Of a stretch of DNA of 64,000 bases, positions 16,536-27,814 are shown one piece after another. A program made the translations under genes and the position numbers. Each line of letters opens with the position of its first letter. Position 1 is the first letter of the stretch. The notes under the pieces are model-generated. The model made no database searches. It had not been told where the DNA came from and saw nothing but the letters and a program-made list of their open reading frames with translations. Source of the stretch: Alkalimarinus sediminis (GTDB lineage: Bacteria; Pseudomonadota; Gammaproteobacteria; Pseudomonadales; Oleiphilaceae); NCBI RefSeq assembly GCF_026427595.1, contig NZ_CP101527.1, forward strand, positions 3,157,001-3,221,000, in the 5' to 3' direction.

Positions 16536-17165
16536 ATGACTGATGCATTTGTAGTAAACGCAGAAGTTCGTACAGACAAGGGGAAAGGTGCGAGCCGCCG
16601 CCTTCGTCGTTTAGATAACTTGGTTCCAGCTATCATTTACGGTGGCGACAAAGAGCCTGTATCTTTAACTTTGAAGCACAACGAGATCATCAAATCTCTA
16701 GACAACGAAGCTTTTTACTCTCACATTCTTACCATTAACATCGCCGGTAAAGAAGAGAGCGCAATCCTAAAAGATCTTCAGCGTCACCCTGCTCGCCACG
16801 AAATTTTACATGCTGACTTTTTGCGCGTAAGCAAAAACCAGCCTATCAACGTACACGTACCTCTTCACTTCACAAACGAAGATGCTTGTGTTGGTGTTAA
16901 AATGGAAGGCGGTGCAATCTCTCACCAGGCTTCAGATGTTGAAATCACCTGTCTACCAGGCGACCTTCCTGAGTTCATCGAAGTCAACATGGCTGATGTT
17001 CATGTTGAGAATATCGTTCACTTGTCAGACCTTGTTCTTCCTGAAGGTGTGACTATTACTGCACTTCAGCACGGCGAAGACCACGATCTTCCTGTTGCAG
17101 CAGTACACAAGCCTAAGGGCGAGAAAGCTGCAGAAGAAACAGAAGAGGAAGCAGGCGAAGAATAA
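16536..17165 (+). CDS. rplY: 50S ribosomal protein L25 / general stress protein Ctc
   Basis: The product has 209 residues: an N-terminal L25 domain (RTDKGKGASRRLRR) that binds 5S rRNA, and a C-terminal CTC beta domain ending in an acidic tail (AAEETEEEAGEE). The ribosome binding site GAGG lies just upstream of ATG. It is in the operon order prs-rplY-pth-ychF. Confidence 0.95.
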   Translation: MTDAFVVNAEVRTDKGKGASRRLRRLDNLVPAIIYGGDKEPVSLTLKHNEIIKSLDNEAFYSHILTINIAGKEESAILKDLQRHPARHEILHADFLRVSKNQPINVHVPLHFTNEDACVGVKMEGGAISHQASDVEITCLPGDLPEFIEVNMADVHVENIVHLSDLVLPEGVTITALQHGEDHDLPVAAVHKPKGEKAAEETEEEAGEE

Positions 17166-17201
17166 GCCTGCATCACTGCTGTAATAAGAGAGCCTCAGAT
17201 C

Positions 17202-17789
17202 ATGACGGACCATATTCGACTCATTGTTGGCCTGGGAAACCCAGGTAAAGAATATGAGAATACCCGACATAACGCTGGGGCTCTTTTTGTTGAGGAGCTA
17301 GCTAAGAGCGCTGGCAGCAGCCTCAGACCAGAAAGAAAATATCACGGCCTCTATACCAAGATTAACTTTCATGGCAACGACTTACACCTCCTAAACCCTA
17401 CGACATTTATGAATCGTAGCGGCTTATCCGTCAACGCACTCTGCCAATTTTTCAAGATCAAACCAGAAGAAGTGTTGGTAGCTCACGACGAACTCGACAT
17501 TCCATGCGGCACCCTTAAACTTAAACAAGGTGGCGGTCATGGTGGGCACAACGGGTTAAGAGATATCATCAGTCATTTCGGCGGCAATAAACAGTTTTAC
17601 AGACTACGCCTAGGGATCGACCACCCAGGCAGCAGTGAGCGAGTAACCGGGCATGTGCTCGGAAAAATCGGCAAACAAGAGACCGAAAAGCTTAATGCAG
17701 TCTATGACGAGATTAACCGAGTACTCCCTGAGATCATAAATGGAGAATGGCAAAAAGCGATGAACCGCCTCCACGCATTTAAAGCGTAA
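17202..17789 (+). CDS. pth: Peptidyl-tRNA hydrolase
   Basis: The product has 195 residues. It cleaves peptidyl-tRNA released from stalled ribosomes. Motifs visible include [17 protein letters not shown], with the catalytic His, PTTFMNRSG and the [12 protein letters not shown] loop. It is 36 bp after rplY and 139 bp before ychF. Confidence 0.96.
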
Positions 17790-17859
17790 CTATTTCACCC
17801 TCTTCGATCTTAAAAAACCTCTTACCTCTATTGATTCACAGCCATGCACCGGCACGCCA

Positions 17860-17888
17860 TTTATTTGCGCTCTGACTGCAGGTATAAT
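17860..17888 (+). promoter_or_regulatory. Candidate promoter for ychF
   Basis: A perfect TATAAT lies at 17883-17888, 40 bp before the ychF ATG, with a weak -35 TTTATT at 17860-17865 (17-bp spacer). The -10 is convincing by eye, the -35 is not. Confidence 0.4.
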
Positions 17889-17928
17889 GTCGCATCTTTT
17901 TTATACACTCTTGTTAGAGATTACGTTT

Positions 17929-19020
17929 ATGGGTTTCAAATGTGGCATTGTCGGCCTGCCAAATGTAGGTAAATCGACTCTTTTTAACGCACTTACGAAA
18001 GCAGGCATAGGCGCAGAAAACTTCCCCTTCTGCACCATCGAACCAAATGCTGGTGTTGTACCTATGCCCGACCCGCGCCTAGATAAGCTAGCAGCCATCG
18101 TCAACCCTGAGCGCGTCATTGCAACCACCATGGAATTTGTTGATATTGCAGGCTTGGTAGCGGGAGCATCTAAAGGTGAAGGACTTGGCAACCAGTTTTT
18201 AGCCAACATCCGTGAAACAGATGCAATCGCACACGTTGTTCGCTGCTTTGATGATGAAAATGTTATTCACGTAGCCTCAAAAATAGATCCAGCAGCAGAC
18301 ATAGATGTTATTAACACCGAGCTAGCCCTCTCCGACCTCGATAGTGTCGAAAAAGGGATCAAGCGCCTTAGCCGCGCAGTAAAAGGTGGCGATAAAAAGG
18401 CTAAAGCACAGGTCGAAATACTTGAGCGACTTTTACCTCATCTTAATGAAGCAAAGCCAGTACGAGCGGCAGGCCTTTCTGAAGATGAGCTAGCCCTGTT
18501 ACACGAGTTTCACCTTCTAACTATCAAGCCTACCATGTATATTGCGAATGTTGACGAAGATGGCTTCGAAAACAACCCACACCTCGATACCGTGAAAGCG
18601 ATTGCAGCCGAAGAGGACGCACTGGTGGTGCCAATCTGCAATAAACTTGAAGCTGAAATAGCCGAACTCGATGAAGAAGAGAAAGAAGAGTTTCTTGCAG
18701 ACCTAGGCATGGACGAAGCAGGTCTAGATAGAGTAATTCGCGCAGGATACTCACTCCTAGGACTGCAAACCTACTTCACCGCTGGCGTAAAAGAAGTCAG
18801 AGCGTGGACCGTTGCTATTGGCGCAACAGCCCCTCAGGCAGCTGGAGTGATCCACACAGACTTCGAGAAGGGCTTTATTCGTGCTGAAGTAACCTCATAC
18901 GATGACTATATTCAGTACAACGGTGAGCAAGGCGCTAAAGAAGCAGGAAAGTGGCGTTTAGAAGGAAAAGAGTACATCGTTAAAGACGGCGACGTTATGC
19001 ACTTCCGATTCAATGTCTAA
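17929..19020 (+). CDS. ychF: Redox-regulated ATPase YchF (Obg-family)
   Basis: The product has 363 residues from ATG 17929, exactly the E. coli length; an upstream in-frame ATG (17887) would add 14 unrelated residues over the TATAAT box. G1 is [14 protein letters not shown], and the G4 variant NKLE (in ICNKLEAE) gives YchF its ATP preference. A C-terminal TGS domain is present (around [15 protein letters not shown]). It is a ribosome-associated cytoplasmic protein. A short hairpin follows the stop. Confidence 0.96.
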
Positions 19021-19063
19021 TTTATCGTCTTTTATCGCAACTTGTTGTAGATTCATGAGATAA

Positions 19064-19080
19064 GGGGGTTGACAACCCCC
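19064..19080 (+). terminator. Short GC hairpin after ychF
   Basis: GGGGGTT (19064-19070) pairs with AACCCCC (19074-19080) around a 3-nt loop. There is no U-run behind it. It physically contains the TTGACA used as the likely -35 of the tRNA-Met promoter. Confidence 0.5.
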
Positions 19081-19099
19081 AGCAAAAACAACAAAATAC
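19069..19099 (+). promoter_or_regulatory. Candidate promoter of tRNA-Met
   Basis: A perfect -35 TTGACA lies at 19069-19074, inside the preceding hairpin, and an A/T-rich -10-like stretch at about 19092-19099 is followed by GCGC. It is 17 bp before the tRNA, the right place for a stable-RNA promoter. Confidence 0.5.
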
Positions 19100-19115
19100 G
19101 CGCCTCAAATGTTGC

Positions 19116-19192
19116 GGCTACATAGCTCAGTTGGTTAGAGCACATCACTCATAATGATGGGGTCCCAGGTTCGAATCCCGGTGTAGCCACCA
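19116..19192 (+). tRNA. Elongator tRNA-Met (anticodon CAT)
   Basis: The acceptor stem GGCTACA pairs with TGTAGCC at 19182-19188, then A and an encoded CCA. The anticodon loop CTCATAA has CAT at 19150-19152. The D-arm GCTC-AGTTGGTTA-GAGC and the rest are nearly identical to E. coli elongator tRNA-Met, including the A-C mismatch in the T-stem. It is not the initiator type because the first base pair is G-C. Confidence 0.96.
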
Positions 19193-19227
19193 CTTATTCA
19201 GTTTTACCTAGCGTAAAGCGCATAAAG

Positions 19228-19258
19228 ACCGCATAACCCGTTGGGATGCGGTTTTTTT
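19228..19258 (+). terminator. Rho-independent terminator after tRNA-Met
   Basis: ACCGCAT (19228-19234) pairs with ATGCGGT (19246-19252), extended inward by CCC/GGG, and is followed by a T-run to 19258. It is a textbook intrinsic terminator. Confidence 0.9.
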
Positions 19259-19431
19259 GTATCTGAGACACTCTCTAGAACTCACTCACCCTATTACTTC
19301 AAGCGCCTCACTGAACCCTCTATCGTCCTTTGGGCAACTAAAAGAGGGGCGCACAAAGCACTATTAATAGATAAATAGGCTCAGTGCACACTATAAATAA
19401 CACTCACGCGCAGCACAGATGAAAAGCTGAC

Positions 19432-19911
19432 TTATATATCTCGACACGCTGCGGGCAAAAAAGCTTTTTCTATGTCTGTTCGATTATCTCCCATGGCCGT
19501 CATGCCTGAAACGGCCTGCGAATAACCACACAGCCAAGAGAATGGACTGGCCGGGCTACCTGCAACAACAACTGGGCGCAAAGTCAGCACTTTATCCTTA
19601 AGGTTAATATTTACCTTGTTACCCATCGTAATGTGAAATGCCCCTTCAGATAACTCTATAGATGAAACATAGTTACCTATTAACTGGTTAGGCATGGGTA
19701 TTCCCGCTTGAGCATTATCTCTTGGAAAGAGACCTTTGAATTTATAGTAATCTTTTATGCTTGTCTTAAGCTCATCAGCAATGACTAGAGCCTCACTAAC
19801 CTGGGCTCTTGTTACATAGGTTTGGTAGGAGGGTATGGCCACCGCAGCCAAAATGCCAATAATTGAAACTACAATCATCAATTCAATAAGAGTAAAACCA
19901 CGCTCGTTCAT
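19432..19911 (-). CDS. Type IV pilin-like protein
   Basis: The product has 159 residues from ATG 19911, chosen because AAGGA lies 7 nt before it while the ATG at 19917 is too close to that site. A short class III leader (MNERG) precedes the [22 protein letters not shown] helix region, with Glu5 of the mature protein present. A Cys pair near the C-terminus (WLCG and FLPAACR) gives the disulphide-bounded D-region seen in PilA-type pilins. It is the last gene of a tight three-gene minus-strand cassette; no assembly ATPase or prepilin peptidase is nearby, so it would depend on machinery encoded elsewhere. Confidence 0.88.
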
Positions 19912-19921
19912 ATGCATATCC

Positions 19922-20914
19922 TTAAGCCACCTGTCCCATTTGAAATATTGGAAGATACATTGCTATTACCACTGCGCCAACAATGAGAGCGAGCGACACC
20001 TGTGTAAATAGCATTATTTTTTCTCTGAGTTTTGCCAGTTCACTCATATACTCGTATTCAATCTGTCCAAATGCATACTCTATTTCTGCACCCAAGGTAC
20101 CAAGCTCTCGCGCAATAAATATATCCTTTAGATAGCCATTTCTCGCGTTTTCTATGCCCGCTGCATCATCAGTTTCACCGATTAGCCGTAATGCACGTTT
20201 AAACGCCTCCTCACTTTGCAGTCCTCCTGCCATGAGAATATAACTATAACTAACCAGTAGGTATTTGAGGTGTAAACTACTGAGACGTTTGACTCCCGGC
20301 ACTCGCTTTATACCGCGACCAAGGGGCTCCAGCGCTGCTATCTTTTGACCTAATTTGGCAAACTGAACAACTACCCATAATACGAGAGGGATGATTACTA
20401 ACCACCATTGAACAAGAAACTGACTGACACCCAAAACCGTCTGAGTAAATGCAGGTAGCTCTGCCCCCATCGAGTCGAACATCGCTTGAAACTGTGGCAA
20501 AACCTTTAAAATATAAATGCCAGTGCAAACAAAGGCTAAAGACAAAATAACGAACATATAAATTGATAACGCTTTTAGCCCTTTCCATACCTGACTAGCA
20601 TAATCTCGATTCATCGATAAACAGACTTGAAGCGCTTTTAACGATGTATTGATGCTCGCACCAGATGACACAAGCAGCTGCAATAACTTTCTCATCGACG
20701 TTTCTGTCGCTAGCTTGTAAGGGCTCAACTGACCACTATCTACGCTTTGGCCCTTTAACAAGCATTCTAGGTAAGTTACCTTGCCGGTATCAATCCTGTT
20801 AAGATTTTTTAATTTAGCGATCGATTCTTCTACACTTAAGCCTGCACTCACCTGGCTATCTATGTGTCGAATGATTCTATTGAGGTCATTTTGCGCCTGG
20901 GAATTCAATATCAC
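19922..20914 (-). CDS. GspF/PilC-like inner-membrane platform protein
   Basis: The product has 330 residues, shorter than usual PilC/GspF (about 400). GTG start at 20914 with AGAGGA 6 nt upstream, a site that overlaps the stop of the preceding gene. The conserved stretch [20 protein letters not shown] and the C-terminal [19 protein letters not shown] are diagnostic of the T2SS F family; three hydrophobic helices lie near 118-140, 168-188 and 305-325. The N-terminal cytoplasmic half is reduced. Such proteins anchor the pilus or pseudopilus assembly motor. Gaps to its neighbours are 3-4 bp. Confidence 0.88.
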
Positions 20915-20917
20915 GGA

Positions 20918-21871
20918 TTATCCTCTACATACCGAAGGTAAAAACACTTTATTAATGGTCCTTGTGCCAACCTGCTCACCTACCCCACCCTTACACTGCC
21001 ACCGATTAACATGCATGGGTCCGGTAAAACCGTCGTACTTAATCAGAAAGCTTAATAAGTCACCCTGCGTAAACGGTGGCTGCTGCTTTAGCTCTACATG
21101 AATAGCGCCACTAGACGAGACACTAACGCCATGAGTAATCGACGAACCAAAACCACCCAATAGATAGTCAAAGTTTTGGTCACTCCACCGCCCTTTTAGT
21201 GCATATGCTTCACCTGCATCAACCTTGGCTGCAGCTGCCAACATTAAGGCTTCAGATAACTTTGCTTTTGCAAAAGCAATTTCAGCGTCCCGTAGCGCAA
21301 AGGCCACACTAGTAATAGATACCACCACAAATATCGCCAACTCAAAGGTGTACTGGTATGGCAAAATAAAGCCTTGGGAGTTAAATGGTTTATTGAGCAT
21401 ACTCGCACTGCCAAAACTAACCTGAAAAGCGCTATCACCAGTAAGGCCTGAGTTTGAATGGTCGCTATATTTTAGAGCTGCCTGATTAATCACTGAGGCT
21501 TTTCTTTGTAGTAGAAAAACAGGCGGAAGAGAGAGCAAAAATACCAATGCATATAGCTCTGCGGTTACAAACCAGGCTAGCAACGATAAAACAAGGTATA
21601 AAACACCAACCGATACTTTGACAGTACCAGGCTTAATACCCGCGATAACAGAAGAGTCTCTGAGTATTGATATCAAAGAAAGAATAAAAAAAGGATAGAA
21701 GAAACCTCTCAACAAAGGGGATAACGATAAGTCACCCGACCTGATTTGAATAGCCTTCCAATTTTGGTAGTGCCAGTAGTGCGCATATAACCCAAGCGTC
21801 AACGCATACAGCAAAATAATCGTCGTCGCCTTTGTCTCATAAAAGGGACTACTCTGCTTACTAAGTTCCAT
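20918..21871 (-). CDS. Multi-pass membrane protein fused to a degenerate pilin domain
   Basis: The product has 317 residues. Residues 1-125 form about four membrane helices; the start (TLGLYAHYWHYQNWKAI) resembles DUF4234-like membrane proteins. Residues about 173-225 (FELAIFVVVSITSVAFALRD, then AKAKLSEALMLAAAAKVDAGEAY) align with the pilin N-terminal helix, including Phe-Glu-Leu at the Glu5 position and the SEALxxA segment of the pilin at 19432. A C-terminal Cys pair (WQCK about 293, FLPSVCRG about 315) matches the pilin D-region. No prepilin leader or cleavage glycine is present, so it is probably not processed. First gene of the cassette. Confidence 0.75.
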   Translation of the reverse strand: MELSKQSSPFYETKATTIILLYALTLGLYAHYWHYQNWKAIQIRSGDLSLSPLLRGFFYPFFILSLISILRDSSVIAGIKPGTVKVSVGVLYLVLSLLAWFVTAELYALVFLLSLPPVFLLQRKASVINQAALKYSDHSNSGLTGDSAFQVSFGSASMLNKPFNSQGFILPYQYTFELAIFVVVSITSVAFALRDAEIAFAKAKLSEALMLAAAAKVDAGEAYALKGRWSDQNFDYLLGGFGSSITHGVSVSSSGAIHVELKQQPPFTQGDLLSFLIKYDGFTGPMHVNRWQCKGGVGEQVGTRTINKVFLPSVCRG

Positions 21872-22098
21872 TTAGTTCACTGCATCCTGCAATATAACGT
21901 TAAATCAATTTACCTGCGCATCTTACCAACAAATAGCCACAATAGATAATGGAGTGAGTTAAATCTACTCTTCACAGATTAACATTACCGACTATTAATT
22001 TTCACAATGCCTAATTAACCTGTAAATAGTATACACTTTTGATAAGCGCAAACAGCCATGCAACCTCTTGGGGCAGAGTCCGATCTATATTTGAACCT

Positions 22099-22968
22099 AT
22101 GAAAACAGTCACTACTCTTTCAGTCACTACTCTTTCAATCACGCTCTTACTATTTAGTAGCCTTATATCCGCTGCGCCTGCCTGTACACTAACGATGACT
22201 TATAAGGATGTAGGCAAGCCAGGATACATGGCGCCATCACCAGACAATACCGGGCTATACCAAGCACTTTATTTAGAAGCAGCTCAACGAATTGGATGCT
22301 CACTTATCATCAAACGCTTCCCGAAAAAGAGATCCCTAAGACAGTTACAAGCAGGCAAAATTGATATTTATCCAAGCACCGGTTTTGAAGAGAGTCGCTC
22401 GTTATACTTGCACTACATACCAAATGGTCTTTTTCGCAATGAGACATATTACGGCCTCTCACCCTTAAATACCGTTGAACTGGAAAGTATCGATGATATT
22501 AAAGATACCGAATTAACATGGATTATCGAAGCAGGCCGAACAACCGTGAATAGCGCAAAAGAAAAAAACATTCCTTATCAGGCATTGGTGGGGTTGACCC
22601 ATACCAAAGCGATAAAAATGATTGTTTGGAAGCGTAAAGTGTTCTATCAGATAGACACAGAAGACTACAACCGCTATCTCAAAGAGCAGGGTACAAGTGA
22701 TTTAACTCACCTAAATATCAAAACTCATAAATACTGCTGCGACGCTAAATCTCAAAAACTCTATGCGGGCATTTCTCGCTTCTCGCCAATCTACCAAGAA
22801 GAGCAGAACCCCGATTACGACCCGTTAATGCCACTATCACCAGAAAATTTCCCAACTCGATTAGTGCCAGGCTCTATCGGCCACCAACTCTCTCAGGCAT
22901 TAGAAGATATTTACACAAGCGGTAGACTGAACCAACTATTGAACGAATACAATATTGATTTGAATTGA
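22099..22968 (+). CDS. Periplasmic solute-binding protein, family 3-like
   Basis: The product has 289 residues from ATG 22099, which begins a proper signal peptide ending SLISAAPA; a longer TTG frame from 22039 would bury it. The fold-defining pieces of bacterial extracellular solute-binding family 3 are visible (GLYQALYLEAAQRIGCSL, LQAGKIDIYPSTGFEESR and a C-terminal YTSGRLNQLLNEY helix). A perfect 15-bp tandem duplication (22107-22136) repeats TLSVT inside the signal peptide. It is 56 bp before a lytic transglycosylase-like gene; together they have the two domains found fused in MltF, so a joint role in the cell wall is possible. An amino-acid sensor is the alternative. Confidence 0.75.
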   Translation: MKTVTTLSVTTLSITLLLFSSLISAAPACTLTMTYKDVGKPGYMAPSPDNTGLYQALYLEAAQRIGCSLIIKRFPKKRSLRQLQAGKIDIYPSTGFEESRSLYLHYIPNGLFRNETYYGLSPLNTVELESIDDIKDTELTWIIEAGRTTVNSAKEKNIPYQALVGLTHTKAIKMIVWKRKVFYQIDTEDYNRYLKEQGTSDLTHLNIKTHKYCCDAKSQKLYAGISRFSPIYQEEQNPDYDPLMPLSPENFPTRLVPGSIGHQLSQALEDIYTSGRLNQLLNEYNIDLN

Positions 22969-23024
22969 GCTCACTTAAACCTTATAACTAATCAACCTAG
23001 ACTTTATGTTGCGAGCACTCTCCC

Positions 23025-24092
23025 ATGAAACACCCATCAAACCTCAATAGGCGCAACTTTCTTTTAGCAGGGTCAGGTCTTGCGATCACATCTATCGCTG
23101 CCGATGCCTTTGGCCAAAACAGCTCAAATCAAACCACCGAAGATACCTCTTTACGTTTCTTAATCGACCGAAATAGCTCATTCGAGCTATCTGACAACGA
23201 GAGAGTTAAGCTAGAGAGAGCTGTTTTCGACTTTATGAAAACTCACTATTCGGGTATGTCTCTGCAGTTTTGGCAACAACCTTTTGAACAAATTGACTTT
23301 GAGAACCGGTTTACCAATATTATTTATTGGATCAATAAGGCAGTTAAGCATCATGAATCTCTCTATCCAGTCGACCCAATATGGGTAATCTCGCAAATTA
23401 AAGCAGAGTCACTATTCTGTGAGTTCGCACTCTCTCGCTCACTTGCCGCGGGCCTCTGCCAATTTATGCCCTACACCGCAAGAGCAGGCCATCAAATGAT
23501 TGTTGCCGGAGACCTTCCAGAACACCATCTCGCGCCTTATAAAAAACCCGAACTGGCCGACTCTTTAAAGCAGTATGAAGCCCTGATAAAAAAACGAAGC
23601 CATTTTATTAAAACAAATAAAAGTGCCAGATCTTTCAGCCTTGAGAAAGCCCTCAGTTATATGGCTGAGGGTCAAGACGCAAAAGAAGAAGCCCAGAAAC
23701 AATTAGACTATATGGCTGAGCTTAACACCATAAATGACAGTATCGCAGCAGCAAAAGACAACTACGTTGATTACATAGAGACCAACATCACCGAGCTTGG
23801 CAAACGTGATTTATTTGGCCACACGACTTTCTTTACTCAATTTGATGAACGATTCACCTACCAAAAGCCTATTTTCGCCATGGTTAAAATGCTAGCCAAC
23901 GCGTTACGGGTGAGAAGCGGCAATATACTTTCAGCCTCTGCAGCCTATAATGCTGGCTTGTCTAAAACTTGGACAAACCAACCTATCTACACACAGTATG
24001 GCTTAATGCCTGCCTATGAAGAAACAAGCCTGTACGTCAGCAAAATAATTGCGAACTATGAAGAGATCTCTGAACGCTATCATGCCGCTTAA
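23025..24092 (+). CDS. Tat-exported lytic transglycosylase-like (SLT) protein
   Basis: The product has 355 residues. The N-terminus has a twin-arginine signal (RRNFLLAGSGLAI) with cleavage near AFGQ. The SLT domain (about 118-180) shows the catalytic-Glu motif in QIKAESLFCEF followed by AAGLCQFMPYTARAG, and a later ASAAYNAGLSK segment matches the family. It would cleave peptidoglycan glycosidic bonds in the periplasm. A helical insertion sits between the two halves (about 185-260). Tat export is unusual for lytic transglycosylases. The neighbour upstream is a family 3 binding protein. Confidence 0.8.
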   Translation: MKHPSNLNRRNFLLAGSGLAITSIAADAFGQNSSNQTTEDTSLRFLIDRNSSFELSDNERVKLERAVFDFMKTHYSGMSLQFWQQPFEQIDFENRFTNIIYWINKAVKHHESLYPVDPIWVISQIKAESLFCEFALSRSLAAGLCQFMPYTARAGHQMIVAGDLPEHHLAPYKKPELADSLKQYEALIKKRSHFIKTNKSARSFSLEKALSYMAEGQDAKEEAQKQLDYMAELNTINDSIAAAKDNYVDYIETNITELGKRDLFGHTTFFTQFDERFTYQKPIFAMVKMLANALRVRSGNILSASAAYNAGLSKTWTNQPIYTQYGLMPAYEETSLYVSKIIANYEEISERYHAA

Positions 24093-24194
24093 AGCAATTG
24101 ATCGCTATTCACCTACAATAAACATCAAGCCATCACTATAATTGTTTAAGGTTAAACGCCTCTAAGATAATAAACTAAAAAAAGAGAGATTTAG

Positions 24195-26021
24195 ATGCCC
24201 TACTTTCATCGATTCAGCATAATAATGTTAATGGCATTGTCGTCCTCTTTTTGCGTTGCCGCAGTACCCGAGACTCAAGGCCCAGAGGCGAAAGCACTTG
24301 AGGCCAAAGCACTTGTGGCGAAAGTACCTGCAATTAAAGCACCAGAGGCCGAAACGAGAGACCCCGAAGCGGCAACAGGCGTTCAACTAAAGCGATCTGT
24401 CAAAGCCAATAGATATATGGTTTCTGCGGCCAACCCTTATGCAGTAGATGCAGGCTATCGAGTTCTAAAGCGAGGCGGTAGTGCGGTAGATGCTGCAATC
24501 GCCGTACAGATGGTACTAACACTTGTAGAGCCCCAATCATCAGGTATTGGAGGGGGAGCATTCCTTCTACACTGGGATAACAGCAACCACAAGCTAACCA
24601 CGTTGGACGGCCGCGAAACAGCCCCCTCTGCAGCAACAGAAACGCTATTCTTAGATAGCAAAGGCCAGCCTATCAATTGGTGGAATGCATTAGCGGGCGG
24701 TCGCTCGGTTGGTACTCCCGGTGTCATCGCAATGCTCGCCAAAGCTCATCAACAACACGGCAAATTACCTTGGAGCACTCTCTTTGAAGATGCCATAGCA
24801 CTATCCGAAAATGGGTTCCAAGTATCAGAGCGCTTACACCTTCTGGTAGCAAAAAAAACCAACCCAGCGCTAGGACGATATGAACAAGCATCGGACTATT
24901 TCTTTCCAAAGGGTCAACCGCTAGCCATAGGCTCGACGCTTCGCAACCCTGAACTAGCCGATACACTTAAACGAATTGCCACCGTTGGTCCAAAAGCATT
25001 TTATTCAGGTGACATCGCCAAGGACATTGTTCGCACTGTTCAGGGCGCACAAGACAACCCTGGGCTACTGACCGAACAAGACTTGGCTGCCTATCAGGCA
25101 AAGGAGCGGCCACCTGTCTGTGCCAATTACCACCAATATAGAGTTTGCGGTATGGGGCCTCCGACTTCCGGAGGAATTACCACACTGCAAATTCTATCAC
25201 TACTTGAGCCATACACACTTAGCCGCTACGCACCTATGGATGCAGATGCAGTCCACCTATTTAGCCAAGCCTCACGACTCGCTTATGCAGATCGAGACCT
25301 CTATATTGCAGATAGCGACTTTGTAGAAGTACCCGTTACAGGCCTGCTTGACCCGCAGTATCTAAAAACGCGATCAGCTCTTATCAACATAGAGCGTGAT
25401 ATGAGTAAGGCGACTGCAGGAGATGTTCCTAGCAGAGCTGCATTTTCAACAGGCAACACCCATGCGCAACCTTCAACTTCCCACATTTCTATTGTAGACG
25501 CATCAGGCAACGCAATATCGATGACCACCAGTATTGAAATGGCATTCGGCTCAACATTGATGGTGAGAGGCTTTTTACTTAATAACCAACTGACCGATTT
25601 CTCTTTCCGTCACCAACAACAAGGTAAACCGGTCGCAAATAGAGTTGAAGGACGCAAACGTCCGCGCAGCTCAATGTCTCCGATGATGATATTTGATAAA
25701 AACGATAAGCTAGTATTAGTCGTCGGCTCCCCCGGTGGAAGCAGGATTATTAACTATGTGGCCAAAACGATTATCGGCATTCTTGATTGGCAGCTCGACA
25801 TTCAACAGGCAATAGACTTACCCAATATATCCAATCGAAACGGCACGACTGACTTAGAAGTTGATACTCCTGCAGCTGACCTAAAACCAGAATTAGAGAG
25901 TAAAGGCCATGTGGTTAAATTGCGTGAGCTTAATAGTGGAATACACGCCATTTTAATCACACCTGATGGTTTAATTGGGGGAGCAGATTCTCGCAGAGAG
26001 GGAGAAGTAAAAGGCCAATAG
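24195..26021 (+). CDS. ggt: Gamma-glutamyltransferase
   Basis: The product has 608 residues. It cleaves or transfers the gamma-glutamyl group of glutathione in the periplasm; the precursor self-cleaves before a Thr, here the Thr in QPSTSHISIVDASG. The GSPGGSRIINYV and SSGIGGGAFLLHWD motifs are in place. The signal peptide is about 1-22, followed by a low-complexity repeat (AKAL/AKVP units, 24284-24343) not found in the family. The ribosome binding site is AGAGAG before ATG. Large and small subunits are both complete. Confidence 0.92.
   Translation: MPYFHRFSIIMLMALSSSFCVAAVPETQGPEAKALEAKALVAKVPAIKAPEAETRDPEAATGVQLKRSVKANRYMVSAANPYAVDAGYRVLKRGGSAVDAAIAVQMVLTLVEPQSSGIGGGAFLLHWDNSNHKLTTLDGRETAPSAATETLFLDSKGQPINWWNALAGGRSVGTPGVIAMLAKAHQQHGKLPWSTLFEDAIALSENGFQVSERLHLLVAKKTNPALGRYEQASDYFFPKGQPLAIGSTLRNPELADTLKRIATVGPKAFYSGDIAKDIVRTVQGAQDNPGLLTEQDLAAYQAKERPPVCANYHQYRVCGMGPPTSGGITTLQILSLLEPYTLSRYAPMDADAVHLFSQASRLAYADRDLYIADSDFVEVPVTGLLDPQYLKTRSALINIERDMSKATAGDVPSRAAFSTGNTHAQPSTSHISIVDASGNAISMTTSIEMAFGSTLMVRGFLLNNQLTDFSFRHQQQGKPVANRVEGRKRPRSSMSPMMIFDKNDKLVLVVGSPGGSRIINYVAKTIIGILDWQLDIQQAIDLPNISNRNGTTDLEVDTPAADLKPELESKGHVVKLRELNSGIHAILITPDGLIGGADSRREGEVKGQ
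24284..24343 (+). repeat. Four degenerate 15-bp units inside ggt
   Basis: Consecutive 15-bp units encode EAKAL, EAKAL, VAKVP and AIKAP just after the signal peptide. The first two differ at one base. It looks like recent slippage in a linker. Confidence 0.7.
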
Positions 26022-26422
26022 CCGAGAGAGAGCCCCACAACCTCAAAGCCCCCCATTGGTAAAAAACAGAGTTTCGTCGTTTTTTAAAAGAAATTGCCGG
26101 TTTATGGAATAAATTACCTTGTTAGCACACTCACCTGTATTCACTTCGTTAGGACGCGGTCGAGCGCTCTTCATGAAAATATACCCCGCCAGCACAAAGA
26201 TATTTTTTTCTTTTATATTCAATAAGATAAAAACATACCAATAATAAAACGTGATCTAACTCTCGAATTTTGCGACTCTAAATTCGTGCATTTCTATAGT
26301 CGCGAGTTAACATTAAGTCAACAGAAAATCTTCTCGGATACAAATTCTAGGTTGAACATACTAGCATTCTTAACTATATTGCTCACTTTATAAACTTAAC
26401 CAACCCCTGAGTCACAATATCT
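26022..26422. other. Intergenic region after ggt
   Basis: About 400 bp without a gene. AT-rich; GCGACT at 26270-26275 and AGTCGC at 26299-26304 (approximate) form a weak 6-bp inverted repeat. No terminator with a U-run, no convincing promoter and no small ORF with a good ribosome binding site were seen. Confidence 0.45.
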
Positions 26423-26758
26423 ATGCCTGAAAACATCACAATTGACCTGATTGAAAAGCTCGAAGAGATCACCAAAGACGACGAAATTAAAAAGTTAAAG
26501 AAGCAATTGTTAGCCGCCGATCAAAAGGCTGGCGCTGCAGAAAAGAAAGCTGATAAAGCCAACCGAGCAGCAGCAGAATCAAACAAACTTCTTGAGCGTT
26601 CAAAAAGCCAAGTAGCTGAGCAGCGTAAGAAGAACAAAACACTTCAATCTGCTTACAATCAGTTAAAACAGACAAGTGATCAAACAAAGCAAAAACTTGA
26701 AAATGCACTAAAAAGCATTGAAGAGCTTGAAGCTGCAGCAAACAGTGAAGACAAGTAA
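26423..26758 (+). CDS. Small coiled-coil protein of unknown function
   Basis: The product has 111 residues, Lys/Glu/Ala-rich and free of Cys, Trp and signal peptide. It reads as one continuous coiled coil (heptad-like AADQKAGAAEKKADKANRAA and LKQTSDQTKQKLENALKSIE). It probably sits in the cytoplasm. No ribosome binding site of strength and no family recognised. TTGATG/CATCAA just past the stop forms a weak 6-bp hairpin. It stands alone, between the ggt gene and the cytochrome gene. Confidence 0.65.
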   Translation: MPENITIDLIEKLEEITKDDEIKKLKKQLLAADQKAGAAEKKADKANRAAAESNKLLERSKSQVAEQRKKNKTLQSAYNQLKQTSDQTKQKLENALKSIEELEAAANSEDK

Positions 26759-26929
26759 ATTGATGTAGGCCATCAAGTTAACTTCGTTTAATTGTTTTGT
26801 ATTAAGTTGCTATACCCCTCTACCCTCTTCATAACATGAGGGACACAGGTTTATGGATATCTAATAGTTACTTCATTGAAAAGATTTATTCTGCTCACAC
26901 GTACATTTAACAACAGACAGACCTTCTTC

Positions 26930-27814
26930 ATGCGATGGCCCCTTTTTATAACTGTTCAATGCCTACTCATCCTAATTGTTGGCGCAGTCGTCTATGCCCA
27001 CAAAGATAATGTAATCGTCTTTAAAGCACCTCCAGATTCACTCACTCAATGGTACAAACCTGAAAACAAACGACAGGTATGGCTACATACGATGTTTAAT
27101 TTACGTCGTGAAATGCAAGCCGCCAGACACTATGCCGAGATTGGTGATAGCGAGCGGCTCACTAAATGGGTTACTAAACTGAGCGAGCACTATCTCAAAA
27201 TTGGCGATATGGTGCCTGAATGGTCTAAAACGTTAGACCAACAATCTATTTTAGCGCTACAAGCCAATAGCAAAAATGGGCAATTTGATGAGGCCATTTA
27301 TATGCTAGATAAAATAGGCAAAACCTGTGACTCATGCCATCAAGACTATAGAGCTATCACAGCTATTCAGTTTCGTGCGCCAGACTTTTCATCTACAGAA
27401 ATAACGTTACCCGTAACAGGCTCAAGCCACACAACCGAAACGCTTTCGTTCAATGCGCATATGACACAGTTGACCGAACAAGTTAATAACGTAAAGATAT
27501 TTGCAGAGGATGGTCTGGCAGAGCAGGCCTTATCCTCATATTCAGAGCTTGCGGAAGGGTTATCGGCACTGGGGGACGTCTGCTCAGACTGTCATAAAAA
27601 AGACACTAAAGTATTCCCAACTGCAGAAATCAGACAAACCATGTCTAACCTAGAAGAGAGCCTGAAAGACGGAACACTGAAAGAACAAGGCCGTTACTTA
27701 GGCACATTGGCCGTTCAAGCATGCGCCCGATGCCACGGAACCCACCGACTTGCTTTTGATATGAGAGAGCGTGTTTCTAGTGAAATGAAGTGGCTTGAAT
27801 TAATAAAACACTAG
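26930..27814 (+). CDS. Membrane-anchored c-type cytochrome with three heme sites
   Basis: The product has 294 residues from ATG 26930; an in-frame TTG at 26876 would add 18 basic residues. An N-terminal hydrophobic helix (LFITVQCLLILIVGAVVYA) acts as signal or anchor. Three CxxCH heme motifs are visible: CDSCH, CSDCH and CARCH, the first two ending helical segments in cytochrome-c-prime-like fashion (KIGKTCDSCHQDYR). It is likely a periplasmic electron carrier. No partner oxidase or reductase is adjacent. The stop codon lies inside a bidirectional terminator. Confidence 0.78.
   Translation: MRWPLFITVQCLLILIVGAVVYAHKDNVIVFKAPPDSLTQWYKPENKRQVWLHTMFNLRREMQAARHYAEIGDSERLTKWVTKLSEHYLKIGDMVPEWSKTLDQQSILALQANSKNGQFDEAIYMLDKIGKTCDSCHQDYRAITAIQFRAPDFSSTEITLPVTGSSHTTETLSFNAHMTQLTEQVNNVKIFAEDGLAEQALSSYSELAEGLSALGDVCSDCHKKDTKVFPTAEIRQTMSNLEESLKDGTLKEQGRYLGTLAVQACARCHGTHRLAFDMRERVSSEMKWLELIKH

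Follow-up and report, generated by a model that had tools for sequence, protein, structure and literature searches.

A compact cassette of three minus-strand genes lies at positions 19432-21871 of a 64,000-nucleotide stretch of the Alkalimarinus sediminis genome (G000:C1:3157001-3221000 of a single-contig genome of 4.23 Mb; "the window" below means this whole stretch). The cassette encodes a membrane protein fused to a pilin domain that lacks a leader, a short and divergent relative of the type IVa pilus platform protein PilC, and a type IVa prepilin. We found the same genes in the same order in four genomes of another genus, and loci in which the fusion is split, shortened, or missing in further genomes. 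We propose, with a probability of roughly 0.45, that the cassette is a mobile module that serves type IVa pili (T4aP) as an accessory: its conserved pilin would be fed to the resident T4aP core, and its uncut pilin would cap the filament at its base or act as a loading adaptor.

An earlier reading of the window (the original prediction) had suggested that the fusion protein may act as a fixed initiator or anchor for a small pseudopilus with an assembly ATPase encoded elsewhere. The observation of the cassette is confirmed in the present study, and the interpretation is only partly supported.

Organisation of the cassette

The genes and the parts of the fusion protein are listed below (lengths in amino acid residues, aa).

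20918-21871 (-): fusion gene, ATG start, 317 aa; membrane domain and leaderless pilin domain, based on the open reading frame (ORF), Pfam, and homologues in the Hahella group described below
21467-21871 (-): N-terminal membrane domain of the fusion, aa 1 to about 135; related to a standalone DUF4234-like membrane family of about 200 aa
21272-21355 (-): pilin-like transmembrane helix of the fusion, aa 173-200; Glu177 at the place of pilin Glu5, no Gly before position 1
20924-21271 (-): pilin globular domain of the fusion, aa 201-316; C-terminal Cys pair, Cys293 and Cys315
19922-20914 (-): PilC/GspF/HofC-like platform protein, short and divergent, GTG start, 330 aa
19432-19917 (-): type IVa prepilin, ATG start, 161 aa; the leader ends with Gly before FTLIEL

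The first gap between the genes measures 3 nt and the second 4 nt; the latter grows to 10 nt if the prepilin starts at its second in-frame ATG (19911), which gives 159 aa. These gaps are within the 3-10 bp originally described. The cassette itself contains no ATPase, peptidase, secretin, or alignment genes.

As judged from its leader and Cys pair, the third product is an ordinary type IVa prepilin. It matches the N-methylation motif models PF07963 (E 6.3e-10) and TIGR02532 (E 5.4e-9), both above the cut-off, and the Pilin family PF00114 (E 1.3e-17); the nearest solved chains to its profile are those of Neisseria PilE/PilA (E 8.8e-34 to 5.4e-32). The fusion also contains a pilin domain, matched by PF00114 at aa 201-316 (E 6.2e-9, 37.2 bits, cut-off 22). 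The claim that the fusion has no leader holds: neither PF07963 nor TIGR02532 matches it at E<=1, PF07963 matches the third product only, and no recognisable prepilin site is present. In a profile-profile comparison with hhalign, the pilin domain of the fusion gave 98.9% against the cassette pilin over 146 columns. As this match is accompanied by a gene order that recurs in four genomes of another genus, the likeness between the two is beyond chance.

Distribution and variant loci

The sampled genome sets are a small part of the available genomes. A search of the family with the PilC-like protein gave a match in all 101 genomes, and the short form was full-length in only five, that is, A. sediminis and four genomes of one genus (Hahella sp. 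HN01, L072, is one of them; the four are together called the Hahella group). All five contain the fusion, the PilC-like protein, and the pilin in the same order, so the three genes do occur together elsewhere. The cassette was found in four of the seven sampled genomes of the Hahella-group genus and in one of the five of the genus of A. sediminis.

A class-wide search with a PilC-like alignment gave eight of 369 genomes at E 1e-18, with the short form in A. sediminis and genome G620; with a fusion alignment (369 genomes), A. sediminis gave the only full-length match among the matches listed. In the order-wide search, 42 of 390 genomes passed E 1e-20. Short ORFs (327-332 aa) were found in A. 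sediminis, G274, G151, and G126, and ORFs of PilC length (at least 405 aa) in the other 38. Of 398 genomes in the phylum-wide PilC-like search, seven passed, with the short form in A. sediminis only.

The variant loci differ in the fusion. The locus of G620 has four genes, which encode a membrane protein of 163 aa, a leaderless pilin-like protein of 162 aa, the PilC-like protein, and the pilin. This split fusion is the strongest sign that the membrane and pilin halves work together. In G126, the pilin-like protein is leaderless, has a short N-terminal tail, and lacks the membrane domain; its gene precedes those of the PilC-like protein and the pilin. G274 and G151 have the PilC-like protein and the pilin only. 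Pilin similarity alone led to six more loci with the same pilin type (G049, G743, G411, G611, G555, and G512). A PilC-like neighbour was seen in four of these, with E-values that refer to a small ORF set: G743 (1e-17), G411 (7e-15), G611 (7e-11), and, weakly, G049 (0.002, an ORF of 198 aa); none was seen beside the pilin in G555 and G512. In G743, a leaderless pilin-like gene without a membrane domain stands before the PilC-like gene. The locus of G411 includes an additional pilin, in which Asp occupies the Glu5 place.

In total, the core pair of PilC-like protein and pilin was found at 13 loci, one of them weak. Nine of the 13 were reached with the PilC-like protein or the fusion as query, and are therefore not independent evidence for the company of the pilin; the unbiased figure is four of six, or three of six without G049. 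The contigs of G411, G611, and G049 start at or inside the PilC-like gene, which places the position of the leaderless gene out of view. A leaderless gene is present in eight of the 10 loci where its place is visible. The three-gene set with the fusion thus recurs, but the fusion is not an obligatory part of it, since it is divided into two genes in G620, lacks the membrane domain in G126 and G743, and is missing in G274 and G151.

On plasmids, neither the PilC-like protein (at E 1e-5) nor the fusion (at E 0.01) had a match, and a viral scan with the PilC-like alignment was likewise negative. A viral scan for pilins confirmed 152 loci, and none of the best 80 of them had a match to the PilC-like profile. 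Separately, the IMG/VR contigs L124 (4554-4979) and L126 (2940-3365) encode a canonical type IV prepilin of 141 aa on a phage-like contig, flanked by genes that we take to be T4-type sliding-clamp and clamp-loader genes. Candidates for other fusions were sought at eleven places from the class search. Nine had a pilin match; those of them with long ORFs were ordinary prepilins with an open frame upstream, and two places were proteins with the N-terminal domain.

The leaderless pilin domain

Glu is retained at the Glu5 place in four of the five leaderless lineages, namely A. sediminis, the Hahella group, G126, and G620, and is replaced by Arg in G743. The residue before position 1, counted from this place, is Tyr in A. 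sediminis, Ser in the Hahella group, Asp in G126, and Gln in G620. The pilin-like protein is predicted from hydropathy to have a single helix in G126, G620, and G743. The weakest profile comparison was that of the leaderless proteins of G620 and G743 alone with the cassette pilin, which gave 94.6% over 85 columns and covered the globular end only.

In BLAST searches against the collected pilins, the own cassette pilin ranked fourth for the fusion domain of A. sediminis and eighth for the domain of G620, and was outside the eight best for those of G309, G314, and G126. For G743, the own pilin was in no ranked place, and the five best matches were pilins of the cassette clade. These ranks do not show that the leaderless domain arose by copying the pilin of its own cassette. 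The original prediction had described the pilin-like segment and Cys pair of the fusion as "exactly" those of the cassette pilin. The shared features are present (Phe-Glu-Leu with Glu177, SEAL in the helix, and Trp-x-Cys followed by FLPxxCR), but the word is too strong because the two sequences are about 27% identical, the cassette pilin is only fourth by BLAST, and the Cys pair is general in type IVa pilins.

The membrane domain

The nearest Pfam name for the N-terminal domain is DUF4234, and all scores are below the cut-off of 25.3 bits (14.9 in A. sediminis, 18.4 in Hahella HN01, and 22.0 in G620). The profile comparison of the domain with five relatives gave 99.0%. When the fusion was searched against 293 genomes of the order, 29 had a match, including A. 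sediminis itself; 25 of the other 28 matched the N-terminal part only and three the pilin part only. Two standalone membrane-protein ORFs that match the N-terminal domain were examined (L013, 202 aa, and L017, 290 aa). In Pokkaliibacter (L073:3847-6546), the same domain is located near the C-terminus of an 899-aa protein.

About four membrane helices had been counted in the fusion. Our hydropathy script marked aa 48-80, aa 79-128 (with space for two helices), and the pilin helix at aa 172-201, which makes the number plausible. The count leans on aa 17-33, which the script left unmarked and which we counted as a further helix by eye; the counterpart in the separate membrane protein of G620 (aa 26-47) was marked as a helix.

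A degenerate PilC-like protein and a constant pilin

The PilC-like protein lacks about the first 50-60 residues of PilC. Its profile matches a PilC chain in the PDB (E 1.4e-15), and the comparison with a PilC alignment gave 99.6% (hhalign). Single models match it poorly: HofC gave E 1.6e-17 and 63.6 bits against a cut-off of 401, and all NCBIfam models were below the cut-off. For PF00482 (T2SSF; cut-off 25.2 bits), the scores were 9.9 bits in A. sediminis and 19.2 in G274, G620 was not listed, and the protein of Hahella HN01 scored above the cut-off at 26.3 bits. Platform proteins of the PilC/GspF kind have two cytoplasmic domains and bind the extension ATPase and pilins. The motif GE-x-S/A-G, derived from our alignment, is present in both halves of all seven PilC proteins, whereas GE is found in neither half of the eight short proteins; four PilC-like relatives found later are outside that alignment. 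One of these, the protein of G411, retains GEKTG in its second half and may therefore be a less derived PilC. Despite the loss of GE, the C-terminal YLP[IL]FxxG is conserved in the PilC-like proteins.

Between genera, the cassette pilins are 55-68% identical, the PilC-like proteins 22-36%, and the leaderless domains or fusions 18-32%. The mature pilin has 153-154 residues in the eight compared. For the housekeeping pilus of the same genomes, the values were 35-50% for PilA, 55-75% for PilC, and 62-76% for PilB. PilA was taken from six genomes as the pilin beside pilB (two genomes have a second such pilin there); the fetched stretch of G620 contained no PilA. Conservation is thus inverted in the cassette: its pilin is the constant element and its machine part varies, the opposite of the housekeeping pilus. 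This suggests that the cassette does something other than vary the cell surface. Phylogenetic analysis of 112 pilins from the fetched loci placed the 14 cassette pilins together with the two solitary pilins in one branch (96/97, the bootstrap being not fully settled), separate from the six PilA sequences of these genomes. A pilin that shares about 40% identity with the cassette pilin is encoded on a very small Pseudomonas plasmid, pA62H1 (L250, 6.9 kb).

In the Hahella group, purifying selection acts on all three genes. With our own Nei-Gojobori script and the six pairs of the four genomes, the fusion had dN/dS values of 0.165-0.219, the PilC-like gene 0.119-0.209, and the pilin 0.052-0.129.

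Genomic site

The cassette adjoins a tRNA gene, at a site downstream of a ychF-like gene.

19116-19192 (+): tRNA-Met; edge of the variable site

We compared positions 17001-27000 of the window with 8.5-kb stretches of four sister genomes. Three of these (G320, G310, and G315) align up to 19195-19198, and G299 aligns up to 19080; tRNA-Met was not found in the G299 stretch. Past the tRNA gene, the sole match to the sisters is one of 164 bp at 23184-23347 in G320 (82%), and some downstream sequence is common. Next to the site, G310 and G299 have phage-type integrases and G320 and G315 have other genes. No repeat of the 3' end of tRNA-Met, as would mark an attachment site, was found in the window, and the G+C content of the cassette (0.427) is ordinary, since 31 of 124 windows of equal size have the same or a lower value. 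Horizontal movement is therefore suggested only by the variable site and the patchy distribution. In G620 (L123, G620:C1:1992000-2005000), the cassette is located between restriction-type genes, namely a type I R subunit, two Mrr-type nucleases, and a NERD protein.

Resident pilus machinery

The genome of A. sediminis contains what we take, from motifs and gene order, to be a T4aP cluster (PilA, PilB, PilC, and PilD), a type II secretion system, and an MSHA-like cluster. Its one prepilin peptidase is outside the cassette; with the peptidase and PilB both encoded elsewhere in the genome, this part of the original prediction stands. PilB and PilC are also present in G309, G314, G126, G274, G151, and G620, the six further carriers for which the pil cluster was retrieved. 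Two further PilB-like ATPases of A. sediminis have no platform gene in the fetched stretch.

G000:C1:707844-709664 (L069:3842-5665): PilB-like ATPase, 607 aa, no platform gene nearby
G000:C1:1802854-1804572 (L070:4855-6576): PilB-like ATPase, 573 aa, no platform gene nearby

An orthologue of the 607-aa ATPase (57% identity or more) is present in all 16 genomes tested, with or without the cassette. The 573-aa ATPase (46% identity or more) is patchy, being found in three of nine carriers, A. sediminis included, and four of seven non-carriers. Neither of these orphan ATPases tracks the cassette among the 16 genomes.

Proposed role and alternatives

According to a review of type IV pilins (PMC10191384), Glu5 of a subunit forms a pair with the N-terminal amine of the one above it, assembly proceeds from tip to base, and the tip-capping subunit has no Glu5. 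A pilin domain with Glu5 and without a free N-terminal amine is, on that account, favoured as a base cap, tether, or loading adaptor over a tip initiator. Loss of Glu5 is seen in none of A. sediminis, the Hahella group, G126, and G620, and the Arg of G743 would suit a tip-capping subunit. The fixed initiator at the tip is thus disfavoured.

In the accessory module that we propose, the resident PilD would cut the cassette prepilin, and the cut pilin would pass to the resident T4aP core, that is, PilB and its envelope partners. The short PilC-like protein may serve as a pilin-specific adaptor or an alternative platform. By the same account, the uncut pilin could dock via its retained Glu5 beneath the lowest subunit of the filament, and, with its N-terminus tied to the membrane domain, it would offer no free amine to the next subunit. 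At the base of a short filament, it might then act as a cap, a tether, or a holder; alternatively, it might bring subunits to the platform, as has been proposed for TfpY.

Several observations weigh against this proposal. The leaderless protein of G743 has Arg instead of Glu5. All four genomes of the Hahella group have Ser followed by Phe-x-x-x-Glu, which makes cleavage of the domain there unlikely but conceivable. In most lineages, the pilin of the own cassette is not the closest match of the leaderless domain. The PilC-like protein may also fail altogether to interact with PilB. Finally, the leaderless subunit is not essential to the pair, as it is absent from two of the 10 visible loci (G274 and G151).

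A somewhat unlikely alternative is a fusion that acts as a chaperone or adaptor of the TfpY/FimB kind and never enters the filament, passing the membrane-held cassette pilin to the resident tip complex with its pilin domain as a docking copy. TfpY, as described in PMC11841053, is a multi-helix membrane protein encoded beside pilin genes and needed for optimal assembly; it likely interacts with PilA, FimU, and PilE, and was undetected in the pilus fraction. The multi-helix topology of the fusion would also make its entry into a filament awkward. A mere chaperone need not keep Glu5, however, and the single-helix pilin-like proteins of G126, G620, and G743 leave incorporation unblocked. In addition, no accessory family was found among the sequence matches.

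The cassette could instead be a variant pilin set that is swapped into the main pilus and changes how the cell adheres or how sensitive it is to phages, while the other two genes provide compatibility. The variable tRNA site, the integrases in two of the four sister genomes, and the position of the G620 cassette between restriction genes fit this idea, and PMC11841053 describes pili as phage receptors. Phage pressure should diversify swapped pilins, yet the cassette pilin is more conserved than PilA, and PADLOC gave no defence call for the three window genes (among the carrier contexts, that of G620 alone was scanned for defence genes). We regard such a swap as improbable. There is likewise only a slim chance that the cassette is a portable pilus-capping system, in which the uncut, membrane-tethered pilin, docked by Glu5 and without an amine to offer, would end polymerisation and, with a PilC-like base uncoupled from the ATPase, keep in place a short, fixed filament that does not retract and is made of the one unusually constant pilin, possibly as a shield against pilus-dependent phages.

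The pseudopilus of the original prediction, with its own short filament on a degenerate platform, an ATPase encoded elsewhere, and the fusion as fixed initiator, is very doubtful. The PilC-like protein is indeed in the cassette and two PilB-like ATPases in the genome have no adjoining platform gene, but the distribution of these ATPases (16 of 16 genomes, and three of nine carriers with four of seven non-carriers, respectively) does not support a separate system with its own ATPase. Both GE-x-S/A-G motifs are lost in the eight PilC-like proteins aligned, and the fusion has the Glu5 that is absent from the tip-capping subunit described in PMC10191384. It is highly improbable that the cassette is a decaying remnant, in which a pilin duplicate and a copy of PilC drift with no function left: the PilC-like protein and the fusion evolve fast, the forms differ between genomes, and parts are at times missing or short (198 aa in G049), but the frames are open, the order is the same in separate families, and dN/dS is 0.05-0.22 for all three genes in the Hahella group.

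Comparison with known systems

The type IVa pilus (PilA/PilB/PilC/PilD, with Neisseria PilE as the nearest solved pilin family) shares with the cassette the prepilin with Gly before FTLIEL, the C-terminal disulfide, and the PilC-related platform protein ending in YLP[IL]FxxG. The cassette differs from it in lacking genes for an ATPase, a peptidase, a secretin, and alignment proteins, in its shortened and degenerate PilC-like protein, and in a pilin that is more conserved than the machine.

The accessory proteins TfpY, TfpX, and TfpZ (FimB) are, like the fusion, multi-helix proteins of the inner membrane; they carry a periplasmic domain, and their genes lie next to a pilin gene. Proteins of the TfpY/FimB kind are characterised by three N-terminal helices, a mixed sheet, and a helix that runs into a sheet of three strands. 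In the fusion, however, the periplasmic domain is a pilin domain with Glu5, and a PilC-like gene stands beside it. Pfam and NCBIfam-type scans listed no TfpY/FimB family for the cassette proteins at E<=1, the content of these libraries in TfpX and TfpZ being unchecked. TfpY is the nearest functional analogue among the systems compared, since according to PMC11841053 it aids assembly, adjoins the pilin gene, likely interacts with PilA, and was undetected in the fibre.

A second fusion of a membrane domain with a leaderless pilin domain is encoded on a Variovorax plasmid (WP_068674268.1).

L249:5416-6393, Variovorax sp. WDL1 plasmid 2: 325 aa; zinc-ribbon-like start (below the cut-off), DUF2628, leaderless Pilin domain

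This protein has the zinc ribbon and DUF2628 in place of the DUF4234-like domain and no Glu at the Glu5 place, and none of its neighbours is annotated as a pilus gene (most are hypothetical and unscanned). As a separate case, it makes this fusion a recurrent architecture. The modular pilins PilB and PilC of Streptococcus sanguinis also have an extra domain joined to a pilin, but PMC10191384 describes these as grafted adhesive domains, whereas in the cassette fusion the added part is a membrane domain that precedes the uncut helix of the pilin.

Among the papers listed by our literature searches, which covered a minority of subscription journals, none was seen to describe the cassette. What appears new is the conserved module, in which a degenerate PilC accompanies a pilin of unusual constancy. 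If our proposal is true, an uncut pilin domain that keeps Glu5 would be a natural test of the rule that links Glu5 and the N-terminus in type IV pilin assembly, and the cassette would be a case in which the pilin, and not the machine, is the constant part.

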